From Parietichytrium sp. I65-24A (Eukaryota; Sar; Bigyra; Thraustochytrida; Thraustochytriidae): DNA of 47,535 bases. The notes under the pieces were generated by a model. The model did no database searches. It was not told the origin of the DNA and saw only the letters and a program-made list of their open reading frames with translations. Location: the NCBI GenBank assembly GCA_012862575.1, contig BLSF01000128.1, forward strand, positions 1 through 47,535. Reading direction: 5' to 3'. The translations under genes and the position numbers were made by a program. Each line of letters begins with the position of its first letter. Position 1 is the stretch's first letter. Positions 1 through 47,276 of the stretch are shown here, in pieces.

Positions 1-2326
1 ACTGGCTTCGAAGGAGTATGGCCTGAATGTGTCTGCGTCCTTTCAGTTCGACGAGCTCACCAAAAATGGAGATGGCAAGCGCAAGTCATTGGCCAGGTTG
101 AGCAGGAAGAAAGACAAGTCGGACCGTGCAGGCACGGTAGCCGCAGCTGACATGGTGTTTGTGCTCATCGACGAGGAGTACGACCAATGTATCGGTGGAG
201 GAGAAGCATCGCAAAGCAATACCTGCCGGAGCGAATTTGACCTAGCAGTGCAAAAGAAGGGACCCTGGCAGATGATGCCGGTCATCACGCAACGTACGGC
301 CTGGAATGATCGTCTCATTATGGAGCTCGGAGAAATGTTATACATCGATGCAACAAGCACGGAACGCTCTGGTGTGGCCAAGGATATGTCCAAACGGCTT
401 GCCGCTCGCCTCGATTTCAACCACGAAGAATGCTGGGACGTATTTTTCTCGCATGACTGGGGCGAAAAGAGCCTGAATCACAATAAAGTCGCCTCCATCG
501 CCGCTCAACTGGAGAAAAGGGGGCTGAAAGTGTGGATAGACTCAAAAGAGGACGGGGGAGGGGAGATGGCGAAGGGGTGTGGCATTGGTCAGGCCATGGC
601 AAACGGCATCAGGAAATCCAAATTTGTGGTGGTTTGTGTGACGAAGAATTACAGCGAAAAGGTTGACATAAAATGGTTTGGCACTGGGAAAACAAATGAC
701 AACTGCCTCCGCGAGTTCAATGCATCGGTGCAGATTCAAGGCGTCACTGGCGTCATTCCGCTGGTGATGGAGCCAGAGATGAGAGAAAGAAGAAATTGGG
801 GAGACCGGCTCAAGATGGACATTGGTGATCTCGACGTGGTGGACGGATGCGACGACATGAACGACCTCAAGCGAAGCAAAGACATTGCCCAGAAGTTGGA
901 AAATTACGTCCAAAAAAAAATGAAGGATGAAACGTATGGCATCAGTTCATTAGGCAAGACTCGTCTTAATTTATTCAAGGTTAAACTCGCGAATCCGGTG
1001 GAGAGAGCTATGGTTAAGGCAGAGGAGTTCGCGCAGGGCACACGACAGTGGATCTTGGACGAGCTACATCAGTGGTACTCGATGCCGGAAAAAGAGTGGA
1101 CGCGAGCCTTTGTACTTTTCGGCGGCCCTGGTGCTGGTAAATCCACCCTCGCAGCAGAGCTGGCGAGGCGTGGCGGGTTGTATGATGGAAGCACCGAATC
1201 GCTGTTGGCTACTAGAGACCAACGCAAGACTTCTATGGTGCAGCGCATGTCTCGACGTTTGTCTTTGCGACCAAGTGAGGCGAGGCAAGATGAAAAGGTT
1301 TATGTTGGGGCCTTTCACTCGTTCAAGCATGACGACTCAAACACGAGCGGCCTGCTCCAAGTTTTCAAGTCGATCGCCAACCAGCTAAGCCGTGTCGTAC
1401 CCGGGCTGAAAAAGGAGTTGATGGAAGACAAAATAGACATTTCTGATCTGGGCGAGAAGGACATCGCGAAAGCATTCCACAAGTTGATTGCAACACCATG
1501 CTGCAATGTCTCCGACCCGCGCGTTCGAATTTTGGTCGTCTTCGATGCTCTGGACGAGTGCGAGAAAGAGCCTCTGATAAGGTTCCTCAACTTGATCCAA
1601 ACCAAGTGGGTGAATGAGACGCCCAAATGGCTCGGGCTCGTGCTCACCTCCCGTCCAGAGAGCTTCATTTCCGACAAGCTGAGTAATTTCAACTCTATCA
1701 AAATCGATGTCGAGGTTGAAAAGAATGAACAAGATATGGCTGCCTACCTCCGGCACTACTTGTCCGGCAAAGTCCAGGAATCCGAGATGCAGCCAGTCGT
1801 CGACGAGCTTGTCAGTCGCTCGGAAGGCAAGTTCATCTACACACGCTTCTTGGAAGACATGCTCAAAGACACGGAATCCTTGACTTTGGAGGCTCTGCAA
1901 GATTACAGTCGCTTTCCGGCTACTCTGGATGCACTGTACGCAGAGTACTATGGACGACTCTATGACAAACTCGGAAANTGGAGTGCCAAGGACGGCGCGC
2001 TGCTTCACACGCTGGAGGGCCACACTGATACCGTGTGGAGCGTGGCCATCGACGGGGACAGGATTGTGAGCGTCGATGGGAACGGATCCACGCTTGTGTG
2101 GAGCGCAAGTACCGGCAAGCCGCTTGTCGGTGGCACCACCAGCGCGCAGACCTCGTTGCCTGGTTCTAGCGCTGTATATACTATCAGTGGCAATCAGCTT
2201 TCGGCAGATGGCGTGGTTGGTATATCGGTGGAAGGTCCAATTTCAGGGGAATGCCATAACTCGGATACAGTGGTAATTTGGAGTGGAAACTCAGTGCACA
2301 TTTGCTGTGAAGTCAGAGTAAATTAA
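1..2326 (+). CDS. TIR-TIR-NACHT-WD40 STAND-type protein, 5' partial
   Basis: The frame is open to the left edge (first full codon at 2) and ends at TAA 2324-2326; no start is visible, and the GTG at 29 is an internal Val. From about 8 to 420 lies the second half of a TIR domain. A complete TIR follows from about 431 (FFSHDWG, then GLKVWID, then FVVVCVT) to about 920. Both copies share the N-C-x-x-E-F, VIP/MMP and W-x-D-R-L landmarks, so they are a tandem duplication. A NACHT NTPase follows: P-loop GGPGAGKST at 1121-1147, Walker B LVVFDALDEC near 1530-1561, and a TSRPES sensor near 1650. After the N at 1978 come one or two WD40 blades (LEGHTDTVWSVA) and a weak tail. Such STAND proteins act as ligand-triggered oligomerising switches, often in immunity or cell death; TIRs can cleave NAD or serve as adaptors. 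The role here is inference. The position of the plant-type catalytic Glu in the complete TIR appears to hold Arg (GIRKS), so NADase activity is uncertain. Confidence 0.88.
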   Translation, partial: LASKEYGLNVSASFQFDELTKNGDGKRKSLARLSRKKDKSDRAGTVAAADMVFVLIDEEYDQCIGGGEASQSNTCRSEFDLAVQKKGPWQMMPVITQRTAWNDRLIMELGEMLYIDATSTERSGVAKDMSKRLAARLDFNHEECWDVFFSHDWGEKSLNHNKVASIAAQLEKRGLKVWIDSKEDGGGEMAKGCGIGQAMANGIRKSKFVVVCVTKNYSEKVDIKWFGTGKTNDNCLREFNASVQIQGVTGVIPLVMEPEMRERRNWGDRLKMDIGDLDVVDGCDDMNDLKRSKDIAQKLENYVQKKMKDETYGISSLGKTRLNLFKVKLANPVERAMVKAEEFAQGTRQWILDELHQWYSMPEKEWTRAFVLFGGPGAGKSTLAAELARRGGLYDGSTESLLATRDQRKTSMVQRMSRRLSLRPSEARQDEKVYVGAFHSFKHDDSNTSGLLQVFKSIANQLSRVVPGLKKELMEDKIDISDLGEKDIAKAFHKLIATPCCNVSDPRVRILVVFDALDECEKEPLIRFLNLIQTKWVNETPKWLGLVLTSRPESFISDKLSNFNSIKIDVEVEKNEQDMAAYLRHYLSGKVQESEMQPVVDELVSRSEGKFIYTRFLEDMLKDTESLTLEALQDYSRFPATLDALYAEYYGRLYDKLGXWSAKDGALLHTLEGHTDTVWSVAIDGDRIVSVDGNGSTLVWSASTGKPLVGGTTSAQTSLPGSSAVYTISGNQLSADGVVGISVEGPISGECHNSDTVVIWSGNSVHICCEVRVN
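1978..1978. other. Undetermined base N at the NACHT/WD40 junction
   Basis: This is the only non-ACGT character in the window. It changes one codon (Lys or Asn) without breaking the frame. The protein passes from the helical end of the NACHT region (near YGRLYDKLG) to a WD40 blade start (WSAKDGALLHTLEGH) with no linker. STAND proteins usually carry a longer helical region there. The N may stand for an unresolved stretch or a collapsed repeat rather than one unread base. Confidence 0.7.
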
Positions 2327-4299: not shown

Positions 4300-4599
4300 T
4301 CAAAACGCCGCGGACTTTTTCGCCAGCTTTTCCGCGTACTTGGCATCCCGCTTGCCCGTGTGAGGGTTCACCACCGCCTCCACTTTCTTACTCGCCACAT
4401 ACTTGGAGCCCTTGTCCTTCTCCTTGAGCGCGCCTTCCTCTTTCATCTTTTGCTTGGCTGCTATCTTGGCCGCGAGAGCGTCTGCGTCTGTGTTCTTTCC
4501 GCCCACTTTTGGCGCACTGTGCGCGCTCTGTTTCGCGCCTTTGGCTGCGCGCGCCTGTGCCCGCGCACGGTCCGTTTCGCGCTGGTTTCCGCGCGTCAT
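4300..4599 (-). CDS. SERF/4F5-family small basic protein (99 aa)
   Basis: The frame starts at ATG 4599-4597 with MTRGNQRETDRARAQARAAK, the hallmark N-terminus of the SERF (small EDRK-rich factor, 4F5, Pfam 4F5) family. A Lys/Glu/Ala-rich segment follows (TDADALAAKIAAKQKMKEEG), then a C-terminal extension with VNPHTGKRDAKY and a basic end. SERF proteins are short, disordered, highly charged proteins that bind nucleic acids or nucleolar partners and, in animals, promote amyloid aggregation. At 99 residues this one is longer than the usual roughly 60-residue animal proteins, because of the extra C-terminal part. It is divergent from the large scaffold gene and shares its upstream region. Family assignment is strong; function in this organism is inferred from the family. 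Confidence 0.82.
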   Translation of the reverse strand: MTRGNQRETDRARAQARAAKGAKQSAHSAPKVGGKNTDADALAAKIAAKQKMKEEGALKEKDKGSKYVASKKVEAVVNPHTGKRDAKYAEKLAKKSAAF

Positions 4600-5781
4600 C
4601 GCTCCTTTTTCGCTAGCGGAATGCTAGGACCTCCGTACTCCTTCTTCTTTCTTTCCTACCTTTTTTTTCCTTCTCCCGATCGTGGGAACCGCGGAAGAGT
4701 ACGCGCGTATGTATGTGTGTCTTGTATGTATTATATGTATTATGTGGATGGGTGGGAGAAACTGTAAGGTGTGTTGGGGACGCACTGGAGGCCTTGTTCC
4801 AAGTGCCTCGCTCGGTTGCGGAAAATTTGGTCGTAAGGGATGCTAGCGTGGACGCGTAAGTGGCACTGGAGGGTTTGGTGTAGCGGAGGTAGGAGGTGTT
4901 AGGAGGTGGTGGGAGTCGTTGCGGTTTATGCGAGCCGGGATGGGGTGGTGGCGTGGTTTAATTTGGTGATGGAGAACTCGTAGCTTGCTCTGGAAAGTTT
5001 TAAGCGTGAACTCACTTTGGGAACTGGAAAGCTTGTGTGTGCTCTCAGTCGAATTGGTGGACTTTCTTAGCGGGACATGCTGAGATTACATAGTCAATAC
5101 GATAGGACACCTCGGGGCAGGGTCACATACCCCTCCACAAAATGGACGAAAAACTCGCCTGCCAATTTGTGACGCAAATGGTTCCTCCGTTACGCACCTC
5201 TTGTAATTACATATATCCGTTTAGCGTCACTGTGAGAATAACAGGATGCAAAAACAACCGTTGAAAAGTACCACACCGGCAGGAGTTGTGGAAGGCTTTG
5301 TGGGATCCTGTTCATCGAACAAATGTTCTTTTCTTCGTAACCATTCTTTTACGTCAAGCAATCAATCAATCAAATAAAATTACAATTCAGTCGGAACCAA
5401 ACAACGCAAAAGAATCAAGAATCAATTCAAAACAACACAAGATTCCGAAACGGAGAGACTTTCATAAAAGCACAACCAAAACCCATTGAACAACAATCCC
5501 AGTCAAATCAAACAAAGCACACACCACACCTCACAACACCTACCACACCTACCACACCACCCGCGTACATTATCCCTCTCATAGCCCCTCCTACCCTCCC
5601 GGGCGAGGACACCTCCACGTACGCGCCGCAGACCGTGCGCAGCGACCACGCGCAGAAGAAGCAAGCTAGGAAACAAGCAAGAAAGAAAGCAAGAAAGAAA
5701 GAAAGAGGAAGAAAGAGGAAAAAGAGAGAGAGAAGAGAGAGAGGAGAGCGTGGGACAGCGTGGGACGTGGGACGTGGGACG
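4600..5781. promoter_or_regulatory. Divergent promoter/5' leader region (SERF-like gene and scaffold gene)
   Basis: This 1.2-kb gap separates two divergent start codons and must contain both promoters. The part near 4620-4680 is pyrimidine-rich on the plus strand, the 5' leader side of the SERF-like gene. Around 5359-5378 there is an AATC microsatellite. From about 5655 to 5750 the plus strand is almost pure purine (AAGAAAG/GAGAGA units) and leads to the ATG at 5782. I see no clear TATA box. Confidence 0.5.
5655..5750 (+). repeat. Purine-rich AAGAAAG/GAGAGA tract in the leader
   Basis: This is a near-uninterrupted run of A and G in short AAGAAAG-type units just before the proposed start codon at 5782. 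If translated, it would give a Lys/Arg-only peptide. There is no ATG in frame upstream of 5782, so I treat it as leader. Confidence 0.7.
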
Positions 5782-8700
5782 ATGGAGAACCCGTCCGGCG
5801 GCGGTTGCGGAGAACCGGCGTTGGTTCTCCGCGGGTTCTCTGGCAGCGCGAGCCGTCGCGAGCTGAGTCTGCGCGCAGGGGAGAACGTGCTCGTTGTTCG
5901 TCGTCAGTCGCGCTCCGACCGCGGCGTGTGGTGGGAAGGCTACGACGCTCGCGGCCGCCGCGGAACGTTCCCGGACTGGTGCGTGGACTCCAGCGCGTTC
6001 TCGGAACAGCGCCTGCGCGAGGCCGCGCGCGCCCAACTGCGCGGAGCGTTCCGCGAACGCCGGGAACGCCGGGAACGCCGCCAGCGCGCTGCGGAACGCT
6101 CCGCGGAATGCTCCGCGGAACAGGACAACATGCGCGGCGGGCCCGCGGATGAGAAGACGCAGAAGACGCGGCTGGAGCCGCGGCAGACCCCGAACGCGGG
6201 AGCGCTGTGGGCGCAGGCGCTGCCAGGGGCGCCCGTGCGGCTGGGGTCCGTCTCGCTGGTCGCGCACGCGGGCCAGCGCGTCCCCGCCGTCGTTGTCGGT
6301 GCGAGCGCGGGCGCGTGGTACGCGCAGCTCACCGCGCAGCTGGGTTCCGGATCTGGTCTCTCTGGTTCTGGTTCTCACGGCTGTTCCGGCGGGTTCCCGG
6401 GGATCGAGGTGGAGATGACGGGCGAGGTGGCGGGACTGCAGAAGACGATGAGATTGTCGCTGGAGCCGATGCTGGCCAACCCAAACAGGGCGTTCGTGAT
6501 ACCCGGCGTGGCGAGAGTGTGGTTCGCGCCGGAGAGGAAGGCCCGCCGCGGAAGAGGGAACAATAAGAGATGGGGAAAGAGCAGCGCGCATGGACCGAGC
6601 GAAGGGGTCAGTATCCTGGAGGAGATGCCGCCCACGAGGACGCGCATAGCGGGGTTCCGCTGCGAGGATATTGGCATTCACATGAAGAGGGCGCTTCTGG
6701 AGGTGGCTATTCACGGGTGCCAGGAGGAGCTGGTGGCTAGCGCTGAAACGAATCTTGCGCCAGTGGAGAAGACGGCGATCGAGTTTGAACCGTGCTCGCT
6801 CGACGTTGAGGAACTAGACCCCCTCACGCTGCACTTTGGGTTCCTGACTGCCAGGCTCTTGTCGAAGTCCAGAAAAGTTCTCGGGGAGGTGCGCGTTCCT
6901 CTCGCCACCGTACATAACGCCCAAGTGCACAGGGCAGAGCCCGGCACCAAGATGATTGTCCCGCTCAACAGCCATGGCCGCATAGGGTCCACCAGAGTAG
7001 CTCACCTCGAGTTTTCCGCGTGGTTTGAGGATCAAGCTCCGCCGCCACAGTCGCCGCCACACTCATTGCCCAGTCCCGCTTCGCCGTACAGAGAGGAGGC
7101 GTCCAAATACATTTCGACTTTGCTAGGTGACCAGGTGGCGGTGGCGTCATCCAGTTCCAATCGCACTCCCAAGGGGCACTCTCCACTCAGAAATACCCCC
7201 AAGCACTCTGACGACGCGAAGCGCTCCATCAATCAGCTGCTCGGTGATTCTGCGATTCCTATCAGCCACGACCCGGGACAAGATGACGACACCGACAACT
7301 CGAGCGAGAGGGAGGACGACGACGAAGGGAAAAGCATCTACTCCACTGACAATAGCTCGGAGGCTTCCGAAGACGACTACCTCGTCCCGTCCGCAAAACA
7401 GCCAGGCGCGACGAAGTATGATCTTTCGGTTCAAAGTCCGTATACCAGCCCTGCTAGCGGTGGCACGATGGCGTCCGGCGCCGCGGGAACGTCACCTCAT
7501 AAGTTTGGCAATTCAAAGCCTGGACCCTCGAAGCAGCAAACAAGTCACCCCGGTCGTCAGAATTTTAATGTACATTATTATGCCGCACAGGACGTCGGGG
7601 AAAACAAACTTCACAGGCCAAGTAAACACACAAGTCCAAACGGAAACAATCTTTCCGTGCAGAGCCCGTACACAAGTCCGGTCAGCGGCACCACGACGGG
7701 ATCACCCAACGACTTTGGCCAGAGCACTTTTTCGACAACCAAGCAGCAAACAAACATCGCCGGTCAGAACTTCCCTGTACCGGACCAGCACTATTCACAC
7801 CACAGGCCATCAAAACACTCTAGCTCAATCGAGCACGGCCTTTCTGTGCAGAGTCCCAACCACTCAATTTCGCCGCATGGGGGCGCGGCGTCGCCTGCCA
7901 TTTCTGTTTCCATGTCTTCTCTCGACAATTTTGTGCATCACAACTCCCACGGCGTGGCAACATCTCCTGCAACCTCTAGCTTTTCTTCGCCAATGTTGGC
8001 GAACAAGCCGCACGAGGGCCGAAAGAGGCCATCATCATCATCACCCGTACCCAGTCCATTGCCGTCTTCACCTATTTCGCAGTGCAGACCTCCTTCCAAG
8101 AAGAATCAGGCCCATGGGCTCTCGCTGGGTGCTTCTATCTCCCCGGGATCGCCTTTCCGAGACGACCCGTTGCCCTATAGATATCCCGCCTTGTCCAGCC
8201 CCGCAAGTAACTCGCCCAAGATAATCTTACCTCCTATCTCGCCGCTCTCTGGAAAATGTAGCATGAGCCCCGATGGAATAGCCTCCCCACATCGGTCAGG
8301 GGATAATCACAGCAATGCGCAGCCCGTCTTCTCCGAGGCTGAGCCAACCACCCATCTTGCCGCTCAGCTCGGGGTCTCGATGGACCCGGAACCGTTGGGC
8401 AGGGATCCTTTGGGTCTCGCCAAGATTCTCGCCGAACAAGACAGGATGGAAGCTGTCCTTCGGGGGCTTGGGGGCTCGCTAGTGCTGCCGCGAGAAGACC
8501 TGTGGAAAGCTGTTGCAGACATGGGGTTGTGGCAGACCGTAGCTGCCAAGCTTGGCAACTTGCCGCAAAACTTCGATGTGGCAGTGCCACTTCTTGACCT
8601 TCAAGCTTTAGCCTCGGCATTCGGCCTGGGCCCATCAGAGCTTGCAATTAGACAACTTCACAAAGGTCTCCTCGACCTCCTTCGCGTCAACATTGTCGAG

Positions 8701-11700
8701 GAGCAGTATGAAAATTGGCAAATGGGAGAACTAGAGCGCGCTGCACATGGGGTAGTAGAATCGAAGGCACAAATAGAAGCTCGATTAAAGTTGATGACTT
8801 TTCTAGAGCCGATGGAGGAGTGGAGCACGGCGAAAGTCTGCACTTTCTTCGAAGCAAGCGGTGCTAGTTCGACAAGTGTACGTAAGATGGACCTCGATGG
8901 CCGGGAGCTCTCTGGCCTTGAGAAGCAAGGCATATACGGCATGAAGGAGGGCCTTCTGTCCCTGGGCGTGATAGATCCTGTGGTCGCACAAAGATTGCAA
9001 TTTCAGATCTGCTTAACAAAAATTCGTGAGAAAGTCGTCCAGGCCGTTCGGAATGGTCAAAACATTGCAGCTCTCGATACCTCGCTCTTGTACCAGAGCG
9101 ATCCTCAAGTACCTGAGACTGAGATACACGATCCCGCGTGGTGGGCAGGATCCAATCACGGTGTCCAGGCGAAAAAGTCGCTTGACAAGTGGACTGTTGA
9201 AGACGTAGTACGCTTTGCCATTGCTTTGAAGCTCTCTGGCCGAGCTGTGGATCGCCTCAGGGCATTTGCGATAGACGGAAAGTCTCTTTTAGAACTGAAC
9301 AGGTCCGACATGACAACGGAGCTGGGAATGAATTCTGGCGAGCAAGAAGCCCTCGCTGCCTCCATCATGCTTCTAAGTCGCCCTCCAGAAGTTTATTTTG
9401 GATCCTCAGATTTTTTGCAGCTTCGACTGGTTAATCGACATGGCGCGGTGCATTCGCGATCCGGTAACCCAATGTCTGAGAGCGAGCTTGCAGTTTTGGC
9501 GCGGGACAGGACGCACACAATCATCCTGCGCCCTGGCGACGCCTTGACAGCCGCAGTATGGCAGCTCTCGGAGACGTCCAAGTCTCGGTGGAGGCGAGCA
9601 TTTCCGGCAATCAGGATCTGGTATCGAATTTACGAGTTTGCTCCTGGCTTGACAAACGACAAGAAGAGCAGCACCTGGAAGCCTGTCAACAATATGTCTC
9701 TGAAAGCGGGAACGGCCGGGGCGGGTACCATCAAATCAGGAGGCAAATCTGGCGACTCACACAAATCCAACCTCGCATCTTGCCAAAGCTTTACAGATGC
9801 TGGACAAGTCTCACTATCCGCAACGCTTCGCCAAAACTTTGCTCGGATTTCGGAGGACAAGGTTTCAAGATGGGATCCCATTCATACACTTGTGGCCTCC
9901 CAATCGAGCGTTGTGAATGCTTGGCGATACCTGAGCACCACAACAATCGAGCGAGGAACGTTAGAAGAGTGCGCGAGGGTGAGCCTCTGCTTCAATTCTG
10001 AGGAAACCGGCGGCCAAGCTCCTTCTGACGCGGAGAAATACTATCGAATTTGCTTCGCTGTTCAGATCGGACAATTCGACAGTTTTGACAAGCCGATGCA
10101 GCCTTGCCAAGTACACGTTCAAGATCCAAACGCTCCTGGAAAACACGCAACACACCTTTTTACTTTGACCCCGGCTTTCTATGTCAGCGCGCCACCTCAA
10201 AAGCAAGTGAAGAAGACCAAAAAGAGTGCAGCAAAGAGGTCCAAAAAGGCCACCAAGAAGAGTGCACCAGCTTTGCAACATTCTCTAGCTCCTAAATCTC
10301 GGCCTGTGAAAAAGAGTCCGAAACCTAGGTTGCCAAAGTCCCCAAAACACAAATCCTCCCGGCCGCATCCTTTTTCCAAAATCGTAGGTGGGTCTACTTT
10401 GCTAGGGCAGGACTTGCCTCCTCGTGACCAGCGCGTGTTTGTTTACGCCGATGGATCCGAAGTGGAGCGCCTTGAGATGCTAGAGGAAAGCTACCGAGAG
10501 CATGAGGCGCGGTTCGCTCGGGGTAGGCACGAGAAACGCAAGATTTTAAAGGAGGAGAAAAACTTCGCTGGAGACCAACTGAAGACCAAGGTCGCCTCCG
10601 GTTTAGAGGCGCTCTTATTCTCATCTAGTGGAGAACCGCGCAGACCCGGAAACAATCAGCTCGACGTTTACGACGACGAGGAGGAGGATAACATTCAGGA
10701 ACAGGTTCGCAAGAAGCTAGATCACATCCATAATATGTTCGCCGTGGAACGTAAGTCGCCGTTGCATGTCCAAGCAAGTCGTCTTGAAACGCAATTTGCG
10801 ACCAGCGACAAATGGAAACAAATCCATTCCCCTTCGGAATCTTCTTGCTCGTCGTCAAGTGCATCTTCTTCATCAGAAGGATCTCTAGATGGCAAGGAGT
10901 TGGAATTTTTCTCGCAAACGGATGACTGGTCGCGCAAAATGGTGGCTGCAAAAGACAACGATGATTCGTGCGCCAACTTGAACTATCCCATGGCCGCAGT
11001 CAATTCCCCATCCTCCTCGTCTTCGTCCACTTCTTCATCGTCATCGTCGTCTTCATCATCATCATCATCGTCGTCGTCGTCCCCATCGTCGCGTTTGAAG
11101 AACGCCACGGTAGGAAGTGAGGATGCAGGAGTCGTCAGCAGAGCGGAAGAGTCTGGTATAGAGGACAAGAGTAATGATCTTGCATCTCTCTGGGCTGACC
11201 GAATATCGAATCGATTCCTTGGAAAGGAAGTTTTGAGGTATCCGCTGCGGCCTCAAAGTGGCGGGGCCAGCGCTCCGAGCTTTCAGTCGGAGCGTCAATT
11301 CAAAGGGCTTCGTCTCGCTGTCTCCCGTCTTGGCGCGCAGATGAGTTTAGAAAAGCTCAGTGCCCTGGACCCGTTCTTCTCCGGATGGTTGAGCGATCAC
11401 GTCTTTCAGCAGTTTATCCAGGAGGTAGGGCACGGGGCCCACAAGCAGGAAATACTTGAGAACCTGCTCCGCCTGGAAGAGAAACAGCTAGACCCGTTCT
11501 TTCGCGGACCAAAATTAGTGTGCAGGAATGGCGACTCGCTGTTCATCCGTTATGAGCGGCTGGTGTACGACTGGACAAGTGATGACAAGGTCTACGGATA
11601 TATGCTAGGCAAGAGACTGTGGAATCTAGCAGAACGTAAAGAATTTGAGCTCTTGTACTTCATGGAGACAGCCAAGGCTATCAAGCTTCAGGAGCTTCAG

Positions 11701-14022
11701 GAACTAGATCCTGATATTACGCCTGAAGATCTGGAAATACTGCTGAATTTTAGACCATCGTCCGACTATTTACAGAGTACCCTTCTTCGATCAAACAAGG
11801 ACAAGCTGTACGACGCAGTTGTCTCTATCTTGCGTGAAAGAGAGCACGAAAGCCTGGAACTCTTTGCGCGTTTCGATAGCTACGCCGAAGAGAGCATCAC
11901 TTCGGAGCACTTTGCACAATGCATTCAGCGGCTCTTAGGGCTCTCAATGACAGAGGAGGAGTTGGCATACTTTGCGCGGAAGACGAATTCATCACATTCC
12001 GAAAAAGTGCGATATCCTGTCCTCTTCGACGCCCCGAGGCACGTAGGCATGTTTGACCTAGATCTGCTTTTCGCACATTTGAAGAGCATTGACGCGTCAG
12101 GGTCCGGGTATGTGGAGGACGGGGATATGCACCAGTCTCTCAGGACCTCTCTAAAATCTCGCAGTCATGGTCAAGACCTTTTGAACCGGGTAGACGAGCT
12201 TGCCATGGATTACCAAAAGCGAAAGATTCAGTATGCCAAGTGGATTGAGCTCATGCTTAAGGCAAAACACGAGATGGTGGTTCGAGAAGAACTCGAAAGG
12301 CTCGGAGCGTGGTTCTCGGCGCAGAGCCAGACGTGCATTCGAGAGTTTCTTGAGGACATAACCAAATCGTGTGGAGTATTCAGTCATGCAAGGGTGGACA
12401 GGAAAGCTCTCGAGAGTATCTTGCTGAAGCAAGGCTTCAAGACAAATTATTTTTATGACATCACCCAGCTTGCGGCGGCCGACATTGGGTCCGAAACCAA
12501 TGCTGAGGTATTATTAGAGGCAGCTCTCGCGTTTGGCTCCAAAGCGACGAAAGCAAATACCAAGCTTTTCCGATACTTTGTGCTTTTTCGACTCGTTCGA
12601 AATGTGGGGGGTATCGCGAATGCGTTGCGAGATCTCAATTTTTGCGATCATGATGGAAGTGGGTGTTTACCACTCGATGTATTTGCACGGGCATTGCAGT
12701 GCAAGCCGGAAGAGCTCAAGCTAGCAATCGCCGTGGATCAGCAGAATATCCAATATGAAACGTTGCTGCAGGAAATGGTTCTTCTATTGGACAATCCTCA
12801 AGCGCAAGCAAAGACGTTGGTGTCCCAAAAGTTACGTAGAGCCATCAAGTTGTGCTCAACAACGCTGTCTTGCGGTTTGTATGATGCGCTGCTTTCGCAT
12901 GATGACACCAAGCAAGGTTTGATTACGATATATCAGTTATCTTGGGAACTGCGCTCCTACCAGGTCTTCCTTGAGCCCCAGGGCCATGAAGCAGATTACC
13001 TGTTGACACACTTTGGAGTTAAGAAGGAGGGGGTTTTACTCCTTGATTATGAATACCTCGTCTATAATGCAAGACTTGAGGACACTGTTACCCACGAGGA
13101 GCGACGCAAGGTTAAAAGGGAGTTCATTTTCCAGTTCTTCCGTCGGGAGCTAAATTCCTCGAACAAGTACGCCGGCATGCTTCACGTCTTTGATGTTGCG
13201 TGGGACGCTCTTCAGGGACCGGAGCACATTGGAGGGATGTGTTCGGCGTCCCTATTCACAGACGTACTGAAAAAAGCTTTTGAAACTTCGGCAGCGCCTT
13301 CAAAGCTAGGTATAGCGATTGCGATTGCCACCGAGCTGTACAAAAGTGAATTCCATGGAGGGAACGATGTTCACTACGATAAATTCGCTGCGGACGTTGG
13401 TGGTGGGTCGAGATCTGGCGCTCTGAGTGACAAGGCCACCCTCGACGATCAATACCGCCATTCTATTGTTCAATTCGTTCGCGAAACGAAGGACTTGAAC
13501 CTCTCAGTGTACGAGACTATAGCTGACTTTGATGGGGATATGGATGGGACGGTATCTCAGCGGCACTTTGCCAGAGCGCTTGCTCGCTTCGGCGCAACTG
13601 TCCCGCCTGAAGGGGCGCTAAAATTTCTGGGTGTTATTGTGGATGGTGGTGCCGTAGCGTATGAGCTCTTTATTGAAAGAGCGGAAGCCTTGTATAAAGG
13701 ATCCAAGCCAAAACTCACCGCTGAGCGTTTGTCGGCCCTTTTGCGTCGAATTAATGGACGAATCGCAAAGGCCAAGGGGCTCGTGTCTCCAAGCCAAGTC
13801 TATTCTATTTTGCTAGAGGACGCAGAGAAAGCAAGTCATTTAAACCAGTGGGATCTGTTTTACTTGCTTCGCGAGCATGGCGTGGACATCGCGACAGTCG
13901 AAGAGCTTGCGGATGCTCTCCGAAGACTTCTCGGCCGCTTCGACATTGTGCCGCACGGGGCTTTGGAACTCACCGCAGTTCACTGGCTCAGACTCTGTAG
14001 CTCTTTTGCAGAGCCTTTGTAA
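5782..14022 (+). CDS. Giant SH3 / C2-like / SAM / EF-hand-like scaffold protein (2,746 aa)
   Basis: I chose the ATG at 5782 because it is the first in-frame ATG and an SH3 domain begins 11 residues later; the frame upstream is a low-complexity purine tract with only a GTG. Visible parts: SH3 about 12-71 (ELSLRAGENVLVV, WWEGYD, GTFPDWCV); C2-like beta-sandwich about 290-416; Ser/Pro-rich region with three LSVQSP-type repeats from 548; SAM-like domain about 1010-1083; SAM domain about 1133-1199 (LDKWTVEDVVRF, IDGKSLLELN); Lys-rich segment 1474-1533; poly-Ser about 1744-1770; helical C-terminal third with EF-hand-like loops at about 2104, 2289 and 2584. SH3 and SAM domains mediate protein contacts and EF-hands bind calcium, so a cytoplasmic or cortical signalling scaffold is likely. 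I know no family with this order. No intron or internal stop is seen over 8.2 kb. Confidence 0.88.
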   Translation: MENPSGGGCGEPALVLRGFSGSASRRELSLRAGENVLVVRRQSRSDRGVWWEGYDARGRRGTFPDWCVDSSAFSEQRLREAARAQLRGAFRERRERRERRQRAAERSAECSAEQDNMRGGPADEKTQKTRLEPRQTPNAGALWAQALPGAPVRLGSVSLVAHAGQRVPAVVVGASAGAWYAQLTAQLGSGSGLSGSGSHGCSGGFPGIEVEMTGEVAGLQKTMRLSLEPMLANPNRAFVIPGVARVWFAPERKARRGRGNNKRWGKSSAHGPSEGVSILEEMPPTRTRIAGFRCEDIGIHMKRALLEVAIHGCQEELVASAETNLAPVEKTAIEFEPCSLDVEELDPLTLHFGFLTARLLSKSRKVLGEVRVPLATVHNAQVHRAEPGTKMIVPLNSHGRIGSTRVAHLEFSAWFEDQAPPPQSPPHSLPSPASPYREEASKYISTLLGDQVAVASSSSNRTPKGHSPLRNTPKHSDDAKRSINQLLGDSAIPISHDPGQDDDTDNSSEREDDDEGKSIYSTDNSSEASEDDYLVPSAKQPGATKYDLSVQSPYTSPASGGTMASGAAGTSPHKFGNSKPGPSKQQTSHPGRQNFNVHYYAAQDVGENKLHRPSKHTSPNGNNLSVQSPYTSPVSGTTTGSPNDFGQSTFSTTKQQTNIAGQNFPVPDQHYSHHRPSKHSSSIEHGLSVQSPNHSISPHGGAASPAISVSMSSLDNFVHHNSHGVATSPATSSFSSPMLANKPHEGRKRPSSSSPVPSPLPSSPISQCRPPSKKNQAHGLSLGASISPGSPFRDDPLPYRYPALSSPASNSPKIILPPISPLSGKCSMSPDGIASPHRSGDNHSNAQPVFSEAEPTTHLAAQLGVSMDPEPLGRDPLGLAKILAEQDRMEAVLRGLGGSLVLPREDLWKAVADMGLWQTVAAKLGNLPQNFDVAVPLLDLQALASAFGLGPSELAIRQLHKGLLDLLRVNIVEEQYENWQMGELERAAHGVVESKAQIEARLKLMTFLEPMEEWSTAKVCTFFEASGASSTSVRKMDLDGRELSGLEKQGIYGMKEGLLSLGVIDPVVAQRLQFQICLTKIREKVVQAVRNGQNIAALDTSLLYQSDPQVPETEIHDPAWWAGSNHGVQAKKSLDKWTVEDVVRFAIALKLSGRAVDRLRAFAIDGKSLLELNRSDMTTELGMNSGEQEALAASIMLLSRPPEVYFGSSDFLQLRLVNRHGAVHSRSGNPMSESELAVLARDRTHTIILRPGDALTAAVWQLSETSKSRWRRAFPAIRIWYRIYEFAPGLTNDKKSSTWKPVNNMSLKAGTAGAGTIKSGGKSGDSHKSNLASCQSFTDAGQVSLSATLRQNFARISEDKVSRWDPIHTLVASQSSVVNAWRYLSTTTIERGTLEECARVSLCFNSEETGGQAPSDAEKYYRICFAVQIGQFDSFDKPMQPCQVHVQDPNAPGKHATHLFTLTPAFYVSAPPQKQVKKTKKSAAKRSKKATKKSAPALQHSLAPKSRPVKKSPKPRLPKSPKHKSSRPHPFSKIVGGSTLLGQDLPPRDQRVFVYADGSEVERLEMLEESYREHEARFARGRHEKRKILKEEKNFAGDQLKTKVASGLEALLFSSSGEPRRPGNNQLDVYDDEEEDNIQEQVRKKLDHIHNMFAVERKSPLHVQASRLETQFATSDKWKQIHSPSESSCSSSSASSSSEGSLDGKELEFFSQTDDWSRKMVAAKDNDDSCANLNYPMAAVNSPSSSSSSTSSSSSSSSSSSSSSSSSPSSRLKNATVGSEDAGVVSRAEESGIEDKSNDLASLWADRISNRFLGKEVLRYPLRPQSGGASAPSFQSERQFKGLRLAVSRLGAQMSLEKLSALDPFFSGWLSDHVFQQFIQEVGHGAHKQEILENLLRLEEKQLDPFFRGPKLVCRNGDSLFIRYERLVYDWTSDDKVYGYMLGKRLWNLAERKEFELLYFMETAKAIKLQELQELDPDITPEDLEILLNFRPSSDYLQSTLLRSNKDKLYDAVVSILREREHESLELFARFDSYAEESITSEHFAQCIQRLLGLSMTEEELAYFARKTNSSHSEKVRYPVLFDAPRHVGMFDLDLLFAHLKSIDASGSGYVEDGDMHQSLRTSLKSRSHGQDLLNRVDELAMDYQKRKIQYAKWIELMLKAKHEMVVREELERLGAWFSAQSQTCIREFLEDITKSCGVFSHARVDRKALESILLKQGFKTNYFYDITQLAAADIGSETNAEVLLEAALAFGSKATKANTKLFRYFVLFRLVRNVGGIANALRDLNFCDHDGSGCLPLDVFARALQCKPEELKLAIAVDQQNIQYETLLQEMVLLLDNPQAQAKTLVSQKLRRAIKLCSTTLSCGLYDALLSHDDTKQGLITIYQLSWELRSYQVFLEPQGHEADYLLTHFGVKKEGVLLLDYEYLVYNARLEDTVTHEERRKVKREFIFQFFRRELNSSNKYAGMLHVFDVAWDALQGPEHIGGMCSASLFTDVLKKAFETSAAPSKLGIAIAIATELYKSEFHGGNDVHYDKFAADVGGGSRSGALSDKATLDDQYRHSIVQFVRETKDLNLSVYETIADFDGDMDGTVSQRHFARALARFGATVPPEGALKFLGVIVDGGAVAYELFIERAEALYKGSKPKLTAERLSALLRRINGRIAKAKGLVSPSQVYSILLEDAEKASHLNQWDLFYLLREHGVDIATVEELADALRRLLGRFDIVPHGALELTAVHWLRLCSSFAEPL
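7423..7900 (+). repeat. Intragenic tandem repeat (2 full units plus a partial) in the scaffold gene
   Basis: Units start at 7423, 7651 and 7840 and each opens with Leu-Ser-Val-Gln-Ser-Pro. Units 1 and 2 (76 and 63 codons) share, in order, LSVQSPYTSP, KQQT, GQNF-like and HRPSKH(T/S)S blocks. Unit 3 decays after LSVQSP. Bases differ among copies, so the duplication is not recent. The SP/TP content suggests a disordered, possibly phosphorylated linker. Confidence 0.8.
11011..11091 (+). repeat. Trinucleotide (TCN) microsatellite encoding poly-Ser
   Basis: This is a run of TCC/TCG/TCA/TCT codons giving an almost pure Ser tract interrupted by single Thr and Pro residues. It lies inside the scaffold gene in frame, so length changes would be tolerated by the frame. 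It also creates a long Asp-rich shadow frame on the other strand. Confidence 0.85.
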
Positions 14023-42518: not shown

Positions 42519-42988
42519 GATATATATACATTCACGGTCAACGCTTTTGTGTTGTCACAAATCCGCTCGGCAGGGTTACAAAAAAGTCGCAGGCAAAGAC
42601 TCAAGACGCTTGTGCCACGCACACCACTCAACACACACTGCGACATATATATATACAAGCTATATATCCGCCCACACTGACTGGGGAGAGATATATAATA
42701 CAACATATATATCTTCAGTGTGAGAGTGAGGGTGAGCCCGACTGAGTCGATCTCGAATCCCAGGCCAGCTCTCCATCGTCCATCCTCCAGTTTGCAGGAA
42801 TTCTGTATTCACTCACTCAGTCACTCAGTCATTGATTCATTCGGTCCCTCATATCCCGAAACTTGCAAACGTGTAAACGTGCAAACGTGTAAACTTGCAA
42901 ACAAACGTCCACACGTCCATACGTCCCACATCTCCACGTGCTCGCAGAGCGAGGTGTTGGTGCGTTGGTGCGTTGGGAATCGTGCAAG
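42519..42988 (+). promoter_or_regulatory. Promoter/leader region of the tandem zinc-cluster gene
   Basis: Five TATATA-type blocks lie at 42521-42528, 42646-42655, 42661-42667, 42691-42697 and 42705-42712, any of which could act as a TATA element. A CACTCAGT/ATTC repeat tract (about 42812-42842) and then the 8-bp tandem array (42863-42926) precede the ATG at 42989. The TATA assignment is by consensus only. Confidence 0.45.
42863..42926 (+). promoter_or_regulatory. Eight tandem 8-bp units upstream of the zinc-cluster gene
   Basis: Units in strict 8-bp register: TTGCAAAC, GTGTAAAC, GTGCAAAC, GTGTAAAC, TTGCAAAC, then AAACGTCC, ACACGTCC, ATACGTCC. Five copies follow (T/G)TG(C/T)AAAC and three follow ANACGTCC. 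The array ends 62 bp before the ATG. It may be a cluster of binding sites or a minisatellite in the 5' UTR. Confidence 0.6.
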
Positions 42989-44233
42989 ATGCGTTGGGAC
43001 AGCAGCAGCAGCGAGCCTTGCGCGAAACGCGTCAAGATGGAGGACGGCAGCAGCAGCGAGGACGCGAAGAAGGCGTGCGTGCCATGTTGGCGGGCGCGTA
43101 AAAAGTGCGTGCGCGACCCGAGCGAGGACGCATGCAAGCGATGCATCAAGCACAACAAAACGTGCGCGGCGCGGGAAGCCGGCGATGAGGATCTGCACAG
43201 GTTCGAGCGCAAGAAGCCCAGCGCGTGCGAAGCATGCCACGTGGGCCGCCGAAAATGCGAGTTCGAGCCCGGGCAGATGAAGTGCAAACGCTGCGAGCGG
43301 ACGGGCAAGGTGTGTGTCCTCCGCGCGGTGCTTCGTGGCAAGGCCAGGGAGTTCCAGGAGGCCGACCATCCGCTCAGCTTCGCCATGGGCCGTACGGACG
43401 TGCTTGCAAACTACAGGTCCATCATGCAGATGGTCTCGGTGTACCAGGAGCTGGGACACAAGGAGCCCCCTGCCTTCGTAAAGTACCTCCTCAAGGCGCT
43501 CGGCCACGCGGCACTGGTGACCGGGTCCACTGCGAGGCTGCAGAGCGTTGCCACGCTTGCGCTTCGCGCCGGCATGGAGCTGGACATCGACTTTCTCCGC
43601 ACCAACCCGGAGGCGCCGATCGATATTGACGTGTACGAGCGCGAGATGGACCGGAGATTCTTCCACGGGAACGAAGGCGGGGCATGCTTCATCGAGCGCG
43701 CCTTCCTGGGCCGCCGCGAGGTCAAGGCAAACCCGATGTACGCAGCAATGTTTTCGACGAGTGCAGAGATTGCGGCTGATCACCTCAAGCCAACGGACTG
43801 CCCTTACCAGATGGCGTGGCGCAAATTCGTCCTTGCTCAAGAAGATGCTTGCTCGCAGTTCCTCACCGACGTGACTCGCGAGGCGTTGTCCTCTCCAGTA
43901 AACAAGGAGACTGGCATGATTGAGTACTCTTGCACAAGCACCGAAGACTTTTACATCCAGGACAAGTATGGCAACGAGTTCAAGGCCCAGCTCTTTGCGC
44001 ACGGCCTTTTGGCGCATGACGGTGCAATCGCGTACTTTACGTTTGGGTTCAAGCGCGTCGATCTCATGAACTCATCGTACAAGGCAGAGGAGGATTCAGA
44101 TGCGTCCAGCGACACTGAGCTCTTCGCTCCGCTACTGCCTACGCATGATATGGAGTGGGAAGCTCTCGACTTGCTGTTTGAAGAGCGACCAGACACCTTG
44201 AAGATGCTCTCTGAGCTTCCGCTCTGCGATTGA
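42989..44233 (+). CDS. Tandem Zn2Cys6 zinc-cluster putative transcription factor (414 aa)
   Basis: ATG 42989 is the first in-frame ATG. After a Ser/Asp-rich start come two complete Zn(II)2Cys6 clusters. The first has Cys at 30, 33, 40, 49, 52 and 59; the second at 80, 83, 90, 99, 102 and 109. Both have the spacing C-x2-C-x6-C-x8-C-x2-C-x6-C and they sit exactly 50 residues apart. Each carries basic residues between Cys 2 and 3 (RARKK, GRRK), the usual DNA-contact loop. In fungi this binuclear cluster, present once, defines Gal4-type regulators. The rest (110-414) has no domain I recognise; the tail is acidic and hydrophobic (EEDSDASSD, MEWEALDLLFEE) and could be an activation region. A nuclear DNA-binding regulator is the likely role. 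It is convergent with the amidase gene and has no visible intron. Confidence 0.9.
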   Translation: MRWDSSSSEPCAKRVKMEDGSSSEDAKKACVPCWRARKKCVRDPSEDACKRCIKHNKTCAAREAGDEDLHRFERKKPSACEACHVGRRKCEFEPGQMKCKRCERTGKVCVLRAVLRGKAREFQEADHPLSFAMGRTDVLANYRSIMQMVSVYQELGHKEPPAFVKYLLKALGHAALVTGSTARLQSVATLALRAGMELDIDFLRTNPEAPIDIDVYEREMDRRFFHGNEGGACFIERAFLGRREVKANPMYAAMFSTSAEIAADHLKPTDCPYQMAWRKFVLAQEDACSQFLTDVTREALSSPVNKETGMIEYSCTSTEDFYIQDKYGNEFKAQLFAHGLLAHDGAIAYFTFGFKRVDLMNSSYKAEEDSDASSDTELFAPLLPTHDMEWEALDLLFEERPDTLKMLSELPLCD

Positions 44234-45051: not shown

Positions 45052-47052
45052 TTACTTGAGCCACTCTGCCAGAGGGTCAACAAAGTGCTCCGTTGGCAGC
45101 TTACGTTGCAGGAACCCACGTTCGATGGCATTAGCGAGGCGTAGAAGCTTGTGCTCTTCCCAGTGCGAGCCCATAAAGTGCATTCCAATCGGGAGGCCGG
45201 CATCGTCTTCGTAGCCCACCGGCACCGACAAGCCGGGCATGCCCAGGAGGTTGCAGAGGAAGACGAATTTGAGCACCTCATACATGAGTGCAAGGTCCGA
45301 CACGCCGTAGCCCCAGGCGGCCTCGGGTATCTTTGGAACCTTGACGGCAATGGTGGGCGAGACCATCGCGTCAATTTTCTGGTCCCTGAAGATGCCATCC
45401 CTAACGACGTTGAGCGCATATGCCTTGACTCTGGCGCTGGCGAGCAGCTCGTTGGCAGTGAACGTTTTACCCATGCTCACGGTCAACCTCGTCGCCGGCT
45501 CTATCTCCACGTCTGGGTCGTGGAACTTTTTGTCCCAGAGGAGCGCGAACTCGGACATGATGGTCATGGTGTGAGCCACGTTCATCTCATTGAGATGGGG
45601 GATGGTGACGTTAACCACCTGAGCGCCGCGGGCCTCCAGAAATCGCAGCGCCGCGATGCACTTTTCGCGCACCTCCTCGTCCGAGTCGACAAAGTGGTCC
45701 CAGTACACGCCTAGGCGCACACCACGCAGGTCCTGTACGTCCTGGAACCCGTGCGCGTGCGCCGGAGGCGGCCCGTGGTTTCCACCATCGTACAGCTGCG
45801 CGTAGAAATGGCCCATGTCAGGCTTCCCGGCCAGCGCCAGGTACCCTAGCGCCAGGTCTTCTGCCGACCCGGCGATGGGCCCGCCCTTAATCACCATGGA
45901 CACCTGCGCGTCCAGGCCCATCTGCACCCTTCCAAACGTCGTGGCCAGGCCCAGCACGCCAGACATGGCGGCGGGAAGTCTGATGCTGCCACCGCCGTCC
46001 ACGCCGACGGCCAAAGGCACGAGCCCTGCGGCCACGGCAACCGCGCACCCGCTGCTTGACCCGCCGCTGTAATGCTCCTCCGAGTAGGCGTTCAGCGGGC
46101 CTTCCCACCGCGCGTTGAATCCCAGCGGACTTGCGCCGCCCTCCGTCATCACGCCCATGCCTAGGACCACTGCGCCGAGCGACTTGAGGGCCCGCACCGT
46201 TGGGTCGTCCTCCATCTCAGTCCCGTTGGCTCGACCGTCCGTCTGCATGGGAATGGACCCGCCGAAGGAGACCGGGTGCGGTTTGGCCACCAACATGTCT
46301 TTGATGACCACAGGCACGCCGTCGAGCATTGACAGAGGTCGCCCTTGGCGCCAGCGGCGGCCAGCTTCGGCTGCTTGTTTCCGCACGTCTTCGCGATCAA
46401 GCGACGCGAACACCTTGAGCCGCGCGTCCAAAGCCTCCGCCTGCTCCAGAACGCGGGCCAGCACTTCCTCCGGCGAGCCCAGGCCCGACGAGTACACCTG
46501 GTGGTACTCGCGCGCCGTGCGGAGCCCCGGTCTGTTCCCAACTTCCTTGCGCTTTGCATCGCCGCTCTGGCGCGAGTCTGCGTCTGCGTCTGCGTCTGCT
46601 TCCGCGCTTTTGCTGCTGCTCGAGCTCTGGTCCGCGCGTTGCTTGTTGTTGTTTTTGGTTGTCGTGTGGTTGCTTTCGTCTTGGCCTAGTCCGTTTCGCA
46701 GGGTCGAGGAAAGGTTGGCGGCCATGCGCGCGTGTTCCAAGAACACCGCGTGCGGGATGCGGTGCATGGGAAAGTACTGCGGCGAAAGCCAAGGGAACTT
46801 ATTGGCCAGCTCTCGCACTGCCGGCAGACCGTTCGCGTTGGCCGTGGCGCGATTCGCTGCCGCTCCAACGCCCGTGCGCGAGCTCACATATGCGGCAGCT
46901 TCCAATGCCAGGCCCGACAGTCGCGGCACGGCCACATTCGCGAGATTGTACGTCGCATTCCCACGGCGCACTCCAATCGGTGGGCGCTCCTGCACGATGG
47001 AGAGCGAAGAAACCAGCGCGCACGCCGCCACGAACGCCGCCCAGGCCCACAT
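45052..47052 (-). CDS. Amidase-signature hydrolase, FAAH-like (666 aa)
   Basis: The first in-frame ATG on the minus strand is at 47052-47050. It starts a short hydrophobic N-terminus (WAWAAFVAACALVSSLSIV), a signal peptide or membrane anchor. A low-complexity insert rich in Asn, Ser and Ala-Asp repeats occupies residues about 124-167. The amidase-signature domain covers about 190-666. It has the full Ser-cisSer-Lys triad: Lys251 (VVIKD), Ser332 in SGGSSSG, and Ser356 in DGGGSIRLPA. The two Ser are 24 residues apart, as in mammalian fatty acid amide hydrolase (217 and 241). Such enzymes hydrolyse amide bonds of fatty acid amides, N-acylethanolamines or other small amides. The true substrate cannot be read from sequence. 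The hydrophobic N-terminus fits an endomembrane or secreted enzyme. GC content is high compared with the flanks. Confidence 0.93.
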   Translation of the reverse strand: MWAWAAFVAACALVSSLSIVQERPPIGVRRGNATYNLANVAVPRLSGLALEAAAYVSSRTGVGAAANRATANANGLPAVRELANKFPWLSPQYFPMHRIPHAVFLEHARMAANLSSTLRNGLGQDESNHTTTKNNNKQRADQSSSSSKSAEADADADADSRQSGDAKRKEVGNRPGLRTAREYHQVYSSGLGSPEEVLARVLEQAEALDARLKVFASLDREDVRKQAAEAGRRWRQGRPLSMLDGVPVVIKDMLVAKPHPVSFGGSIPMQTDGRANGTEMEDDPTVRALKSLGAVVLGMGVMTEGGASPLGFNARWEGPLNAYSEEHYSGGSSSGCAVAVAAGLVPLAVGVDGGGSIRLPAAMSGVLGLATTFGRVQMGLDAQVSMVIKGGPIAGSAEDLALGYLALAGKPDMGHFYAQLYDGGNHGPPPAHAHGFQDVQDLRGVRLGVYWDHFVDSDEEVREKCIAALRFLEARGAQVVNVTIPHLNEMNVAHTMTIMSEFALLWDKKFHDPDVEIEPATRLTVSMGKTFTANELLASARVKAYALNVVRDGIFRDQKIDAMVSPTIAVKVPKIPEAAWGYGVSDLALMYEVLKFVFLCNLLGMPGLSVPVGYEDDAGLPIGMHFMGSHWEEHKLLRLANAIERGFLQRKLPTEHFVDPLAEWLK

Positions 47053-47201
47053 TGCTTCCCTTTCTGCCTTCCGTGCGCAGCAGTCGTGCGAGGTCTGCAC
47101 CGAGCTTTTGCAACCTGTTCCCCACAGATGTTCCCGGTTGGATGGCGTCGGCCACGCAGATGATCTCCAGCGATGTGATACGATGCAAGATGCAATGCAA
47201 T
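47053..47201. promoter_or_regulatory. Upstream region of the amidase gene
   Basis: The amidase frame stays open without ATG up to a TTG at 47205, so the ATG at 47052 is preferred. This interval should hold the 5' leader. An ATGCAATTCA repeat starts near 47190. Confidence 0.4.
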
Positions 47202-47276
47202 TCAATGCAATTCAATGCGTTGCGATGCGAGATACAACGCAATGCGTTGCGAGAAGTGAGAAGTGAGAAGCAAGAT
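47189..47276. repeat. Short direct and inverted repeats upstream of the amidase gene
   Basis: ATGCAATTCA occurs twice in tandem (about 47192-47211). AATGCGTTGCGA occurs twice (47214-47225 and 47241-47252). CAACGCAATGCGTTG at 47235-47249 is an odd palindrome, and GAGAAGT/GAGAAGC units follow. The function is unknown; it could be regulatory or simple-sequence drift. Confidence 0.6.

Follow-up and report, generated by a model that had tools for sequence, protein, structure and literature searches.

Here we describe a predicted gene encoding two zinc clusters of the Zn2Cys6 family on a single chain of 414 amino acids. It lies in a 47,535-base stretch of contig BLSF01000128.1 (hereafter the window, meaning the whole stretch analysed). 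All twelve cysteines, with identical spacing in both clusters, are held in one open reading frame (ORF). The protein is probably a regulator of transcription that binds DNA in a sequence-specific manner, and from the arrangement of its clusters it is reasonable to infer that a monomer could bind two half-sites. In this family a cluster coordinates two zinc ions and recognises a short DNA triplet, and the fungal factors are in most cases dimers that bind triplets in pairs. Since zinc clusters of this type have already been found outside fungi, the arrangement reported here is an unusual use of a known part and not a new kind of protein. The features that carry this finding are as follows.

42989..44233, plus strand: gene for the tandem Zn2Cys6 protein, an uninterrupted ORF of 414 amino acids, apparently intron-free
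43076..43165, plus strand: zinc cluster 1, residues 30-59, C-x2-C-x6-C-x8-C-x2-C-x6-C
43166..43225, plus strand: linker between the clusters, residues 60-79, 20 residues, net charge 0
43226..43315, plus strand: zinc cluster 2, residues 80-109, C-x2-C-x6-C-x8-C-x2-C-x6-C

Two zinc clusters in one open reading frame

A first-pass annotation of the window had reported two clusters with this spacing at 43076-43315, starting exactly 50 residues apart. That observation is confirmed by a six-frame scan, shuffles and Pfam, and its coordinates are exact; the interpretation attached to it is partly supported. All six frames of the window were scanned for stop-free matches to the loose pattern C-x2-C-x6-C-x5-16-C-x2-C-x6-9-C. 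Only two were found, at 43076-43165 and 43226-43315, both with a middle spacer of eight residues; they begin with Cys30 and Cys80, an offset of 50 residues. A chance origin of the clusters is rejected by shuffling of both residues and dinucleotides. When the residues of the protein were shuffled 200,000 times, no shuffle contained the strict cluster and 17 contained the loose one, while the twelve-cysteine spacing, present once in the window, was recovered in none of 100 dinucleotide shuffles.

The Pfam family Zn_clus (PF00172, gathering cut-off 21 bits) matches the whole protein in two stretches with 26.3 bits. The other Pfam matches stay below their cut-offs, namely PSP1 for the whole protein and DUF5651, DUF4211, Rep_fac-A_C and Dickkopf_N for pieces of the clusters. 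Both clusters, with their spacers x8 and x6, also satisfy the Zn2Cys6 spacing C-x2-C-x6-C-x5-16-C-x2-C-x6-8-C given in an excerpt of PMC4827209.

The reading frame is preceded by an in-frame stop directly 5′ of 32 codons, followed by the first ATG of the 414-residue ORF. A second in-frame ATG at 43037 (residue 17) is a possible start that leaves both clusters intact. The guanine plus cytosine fraction at codon positions 1, 2 and 3 is 0.59, 0.44 and 0.77. An antisense ORF of 398 amino acids (42821-44017, minus strand) was considered as the gene and rejected because it is the plus-strand frame that matches Pfam. The two frames are not fully separated by codon use: its correlation with the adjoining amidase gene is 0.89 for the 414-residue ORF against 0.67 for the antisense ORF, and its correlation with the two giant frames of the window is 0.78 and 0.74 for the antisense ORF against 0.76 and 0.71 for the 414-residue ORF.

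Kinship of the two clusters

Judged by their sequences, both clusters are related as members of the Zn2Cys6 family. Pairwise BLASTP aligns them without gaps at 14/34 identical positions (E = 1e-7 for a single comparison), an identity to which the cysteines contribute much. Of the 24 non-cysteine positions, 6 are identical between the clusters. When these 24 positions were shuffled 100,000 times, 275 shuffles reached the observed BLOSUM score and 911 the observed identity. Internal duplication within the gene, which the first-pass annotation had read from the spacing, is therefore plausible but not strongly shown, because any two family members share part of the pattern. If real, the duplication would be old, since so few of the non-cysteine positions agree. 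At the DNA level the clusters are identical at 46 of 96 bases, with no sign of a recent duplication.

Proposed mode of action

By analogy with the family, each cluster would hold two zinc ions and read one short DNA triplet. Because the 20-residue linker joins both clusters, one chain would be able to occupy two half-sites, and a monomer may reach two triplets at various spacings. In both clusters the segment from cysteine 2 to cysteine 3 is basic (WRARKK in cluster 1 and HVGRRK in cluster 2, with one arginine and one lysine identical between them), which fits DNA contact by both. Further along the chain, residues 205-362 may form a PAS-like domain for sensing or partner binding, and the acidic tail might recruit the transcription machinery. 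Taken in full, the proposal of a protist regulator whose built-in cluster pair reads a two-part site as a monomer and is switched by a PAS-like sensor is doubtful.

A weaker alternative to both clusters reading DNA is that only cluster 2 does so, that cluster 1 is a diverged copy serving protein contact or stability, and that the protein dimerises as usual. On its own cluster 2 passes the Zn_clus cut-off with 25.1 bits, while cluster 1 falls just below it with 19.8 bits, a score that weighs against the main reading, and the low agreement of their non-cysteine positions points the same way. However, cluster 1 retains its six cysteines in the same spacing and carries the higher net charge (+6 against +4 for cluster 2). 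In a dimer one would look for a coiled coil behind the zinc cluster, but the five best stretches of a crude heptad scan start at residues 383-386, in the tail and not behind cluster 2. We consider this alternative unlikely. Alternatively, the clusters might bind zinc but not specific DNA sequences, the fold having been reused in a factor that binds chromatin, RNA or protein. This would suit a protein in whose remainder no fungal-type regulatory domain was found, but it is very unlikely given the basic stretch in both clusters and the presence of an acidic tail.

Comparison with known Zn2Cys6 proteins

With GAL4-type Zn2Cys6 (PF00172) factors the protein shares, in both clusters, the six-cysteine spacing and the basic residues that follow cysteine 2 up to cysteine 3. 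These factors carry one cluster, whereas the 414-residue protein carries two, has no Pfam match in residues 111-414 and probably comes from outside the fungi. If the proposed function is true, a regulator with paired clusters on a single chain would represent a design unlike that of the usual fungal factors, which have a single cluster and form dimers.

The first-pass annotation had offered a wider distribution of the fold as one explanation for its finding, and such a distribution is real and already published. Excerpts of PMC5611559 list 24 Zn2Cys6 proteins in Ectocarpus, 71 in Naegleria and 7 in Capsaspora, with one or two in each dictyostelid species and one in diatoms. A further 22 are given for Acanthamoeba in an excerpt of PMC4053784, and the excerpt of PMC4827209 places the domain in haptophytes, Nannochloropsis gaditana and Phaeodactylum. 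The review PMC8399792, likewise in excerpt, describes a Zn2Cys6 gene of Nannochloropsis gaditana that restrains lipid production and whose knockout doubled lipid. The proteins of Ectocarpus, Naegleria, Acanthamoeba, haptophytes and Nannochloropsis resemble the present one in carrying the domain outside fungi; they are set apart by their descriptions, which in these excerpts make no mention of two clusters per chain.

For tandem clusters at least one fungal precedent exists. An excerpt of PMC7295025 describes PoZCP55 of Pleurotus ostreatus, a predicted protein with two zinc cluster domains; there the clusters are C-terminal in a protein with three septin domains, whereas here the pair is N-terminal. 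A second-hand mention of an Alternaria protein with two Zn2Cys6 domains, in an excerpt of PMC10305253, is given little weight because the source it cites is a paper on rice blast. PMC4192604 was considered as a two-domain precedent and set aside, as its excerpt concerns two genes, not two domains. Among the papers listed by the literature search, none was seen on a non-fungal protein with two Zn2Cys6 clusters, a weak negative because it was judged mostly from the listings and because spellings of the Zn(II)2Cys6 type are not searchable as phrases. Thus neither the non-fungal occurrence nor the number of two clusters is without precedent, since protist Zn2Cys6 proteins and PoZCP55 are published, and what was not found described in the literature searched, on that same weak footing, is a close N-terminal cluster pair in a probable protist.

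A covalent cluster pair outside fungi would be a natural case in which to ask whether dimerisation is indispensable. It would also add a lineage to the question of the patchy spread of Zn2Cys6 proteins, for which an excerpt of PMC5415576 describes fungal transfer and ancient origin with loss as open alternatives. A single gene alone does not settle transfer versus loss.

Homologue searches

No homologue was confirmed in the four DNA collections searched (viral_contigs, genome_contigs, plasmids and phages). This absence counts against the proposed regulator but says little, because protists are scarce or absent in these collections. With the whole protein, 3 stretches in viral_contigs and 30 in genome_contigs matched the peptide pattern and none was confirmed; the cluster region alone gave no pattern match in viral_contigs. 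Such scans of contigs with the pattern of a single protein reach close relatives only. In plasmids and phages, tblastn found nothing at E 0.01. Against PDB sequences the 414-residue protein had no match up to E 10, and a profile of the two clusters retrieved one sequence, IFT139 (E 3.8, a chance match), and no Zn2Cys6 protein.

Searched on its own as a DNA pattern, the twelve-cysteine spacing matched 70 stretches in viral_contigs and 90, of which 80 were listed, in genome_contigs, and 59 of these 160 loci contain a stop-free in-frame match. The number of cysteines per 80 residues is 21 in one arginine-rich locus and at least 36 in the other 58; the twelve loci with the fewest cysteines were inspected. 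Owing to their high cysteine content the 59 loci were judged to be low-complexity sequence and rejected as relatives.

The region behind the clusters

Two candidate features follow the cluster pair.

43601..44074, plus strand: candidate PAS-like domain, residues 205-362, a hypothesis from a single-sequence model and Foldseek
44072..44230, plus strand: acidic C-terminal tail, residues 362-414 (the last 53), net charge -12, candidate activation region

Searched against Pfam up to E 10, residues 111-414 matched no family, nor any regulatory domain of the kind found in the middle of fungal factors, such as Fungal_trans. Shorter pieces of this region gave only DUF6886 and PLA2_inh (E 0.13-0.22), both well short of their cut-offs. 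The suggestion of a PAS-like domain comes from predicted structure. When the AlphaFold2 single-sequence model of residues 205-362 was compared with the PDB by Foldseek, the 50 matches listed of 811 comprised 49 PAS/LOV entries, among which we count phytochrome A, presumably a member, and 1 thioesterase; many of the PAS/LOV rows are repeat entries of a few LOV proteins. For a separate full-length model, PAS/LOV proteins fill 18 of the 50 rows among the matches listed.

Several results weigh against a PAS-like domain. The mean predicted local distance difference test score (pLDDT) is 45.2 for the whole protein and 52.4 for residues 205-362; in the latter model the first 66 residues are nearly all below 50, and only residues from about 271 to 359 exceed that value. 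The best Foldseek E value for residues 205-362 is 0.087, and no match reaches 0.001 with either model. The first ten rows for the full-length model include no PAS protein, and PAS/LOV entries are abundant in the PDB. Matches in a viral structure library are scattered, the 50 rows including 2 annotated as histidine kinase and 1 as GGDEF. Neither Pfam nor NCBIfam (up to E 10) yielded a PAS family, nor did PDB sequences, where the single match to residues 205-362, sperm-associated antigen 8 (E 0.11), is read as chance. LOV photoreceptors carry the flavin-binding motif Asn-Cys-Arg-Phe-Leu, which is absent from the 414-residue protein. The assignment of a PAS-like domain to residues 205-362 is a guess, standing at roughly even odds.

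Fungal Zn2Cys6-PAS regulators of the ERT1, RDS2 and AcuK type have a single N-terminal zinc cluster with the PAS domain behind it. If the PAS guess holds, the layout here would be similar, with the differences that those regulators have one cluster only, against two here, and that no PAS profile matches the present protein. The acidic tail fits a candidate activation region by its composition.

Gene content of the window

The window is eukaryotic by gene content. A frame of 6,929 codons without interruption (15017-35806, plus strand) carries SPRY, APC10, Cul7 and HECT domains and encodes a giant ubiquitin ligase of the HECT type. Long genes poor in introns would be in keeping with labyrinthulomycetes (thraustochytrids). 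The HECT part scores best with HECTD3, which we take to be an animal protein (158.5 bits), against 98.1 bits for TOM1, presumably a fungal one. This preference speaks weakly against a fungal window, since the set of solved structures is biased towards animals. At the left end (2-2326, plus strand) a further gene encodes a TIR domain together with an ATPase region of NACHT/NPHP3 type; it contains an ambiguous base at 1978 and, by eye, WD40-like repeats further on. With the HECT preference and the TIR and NACHT-type gene, a non-fungal origin of the window is likely, though not proven; the first-pass annotation had called the cluster protein non-fungal-looking.

The amidase signature family gene (45052-47211, minus strand) and the zinc-cluster gene are arranged tail to tail and have similar codon use. 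Scans of the window with Rfam and for tRNA gave 0 matches each. The second giant frame, of 2,893 codons (5341-14022, plus strand), has SH3 and EF-hand matches below the cut-offs and long serine runs, and a small protein with a SERF-like N-terminus is encoded at 4300-4599 on the minus strand.
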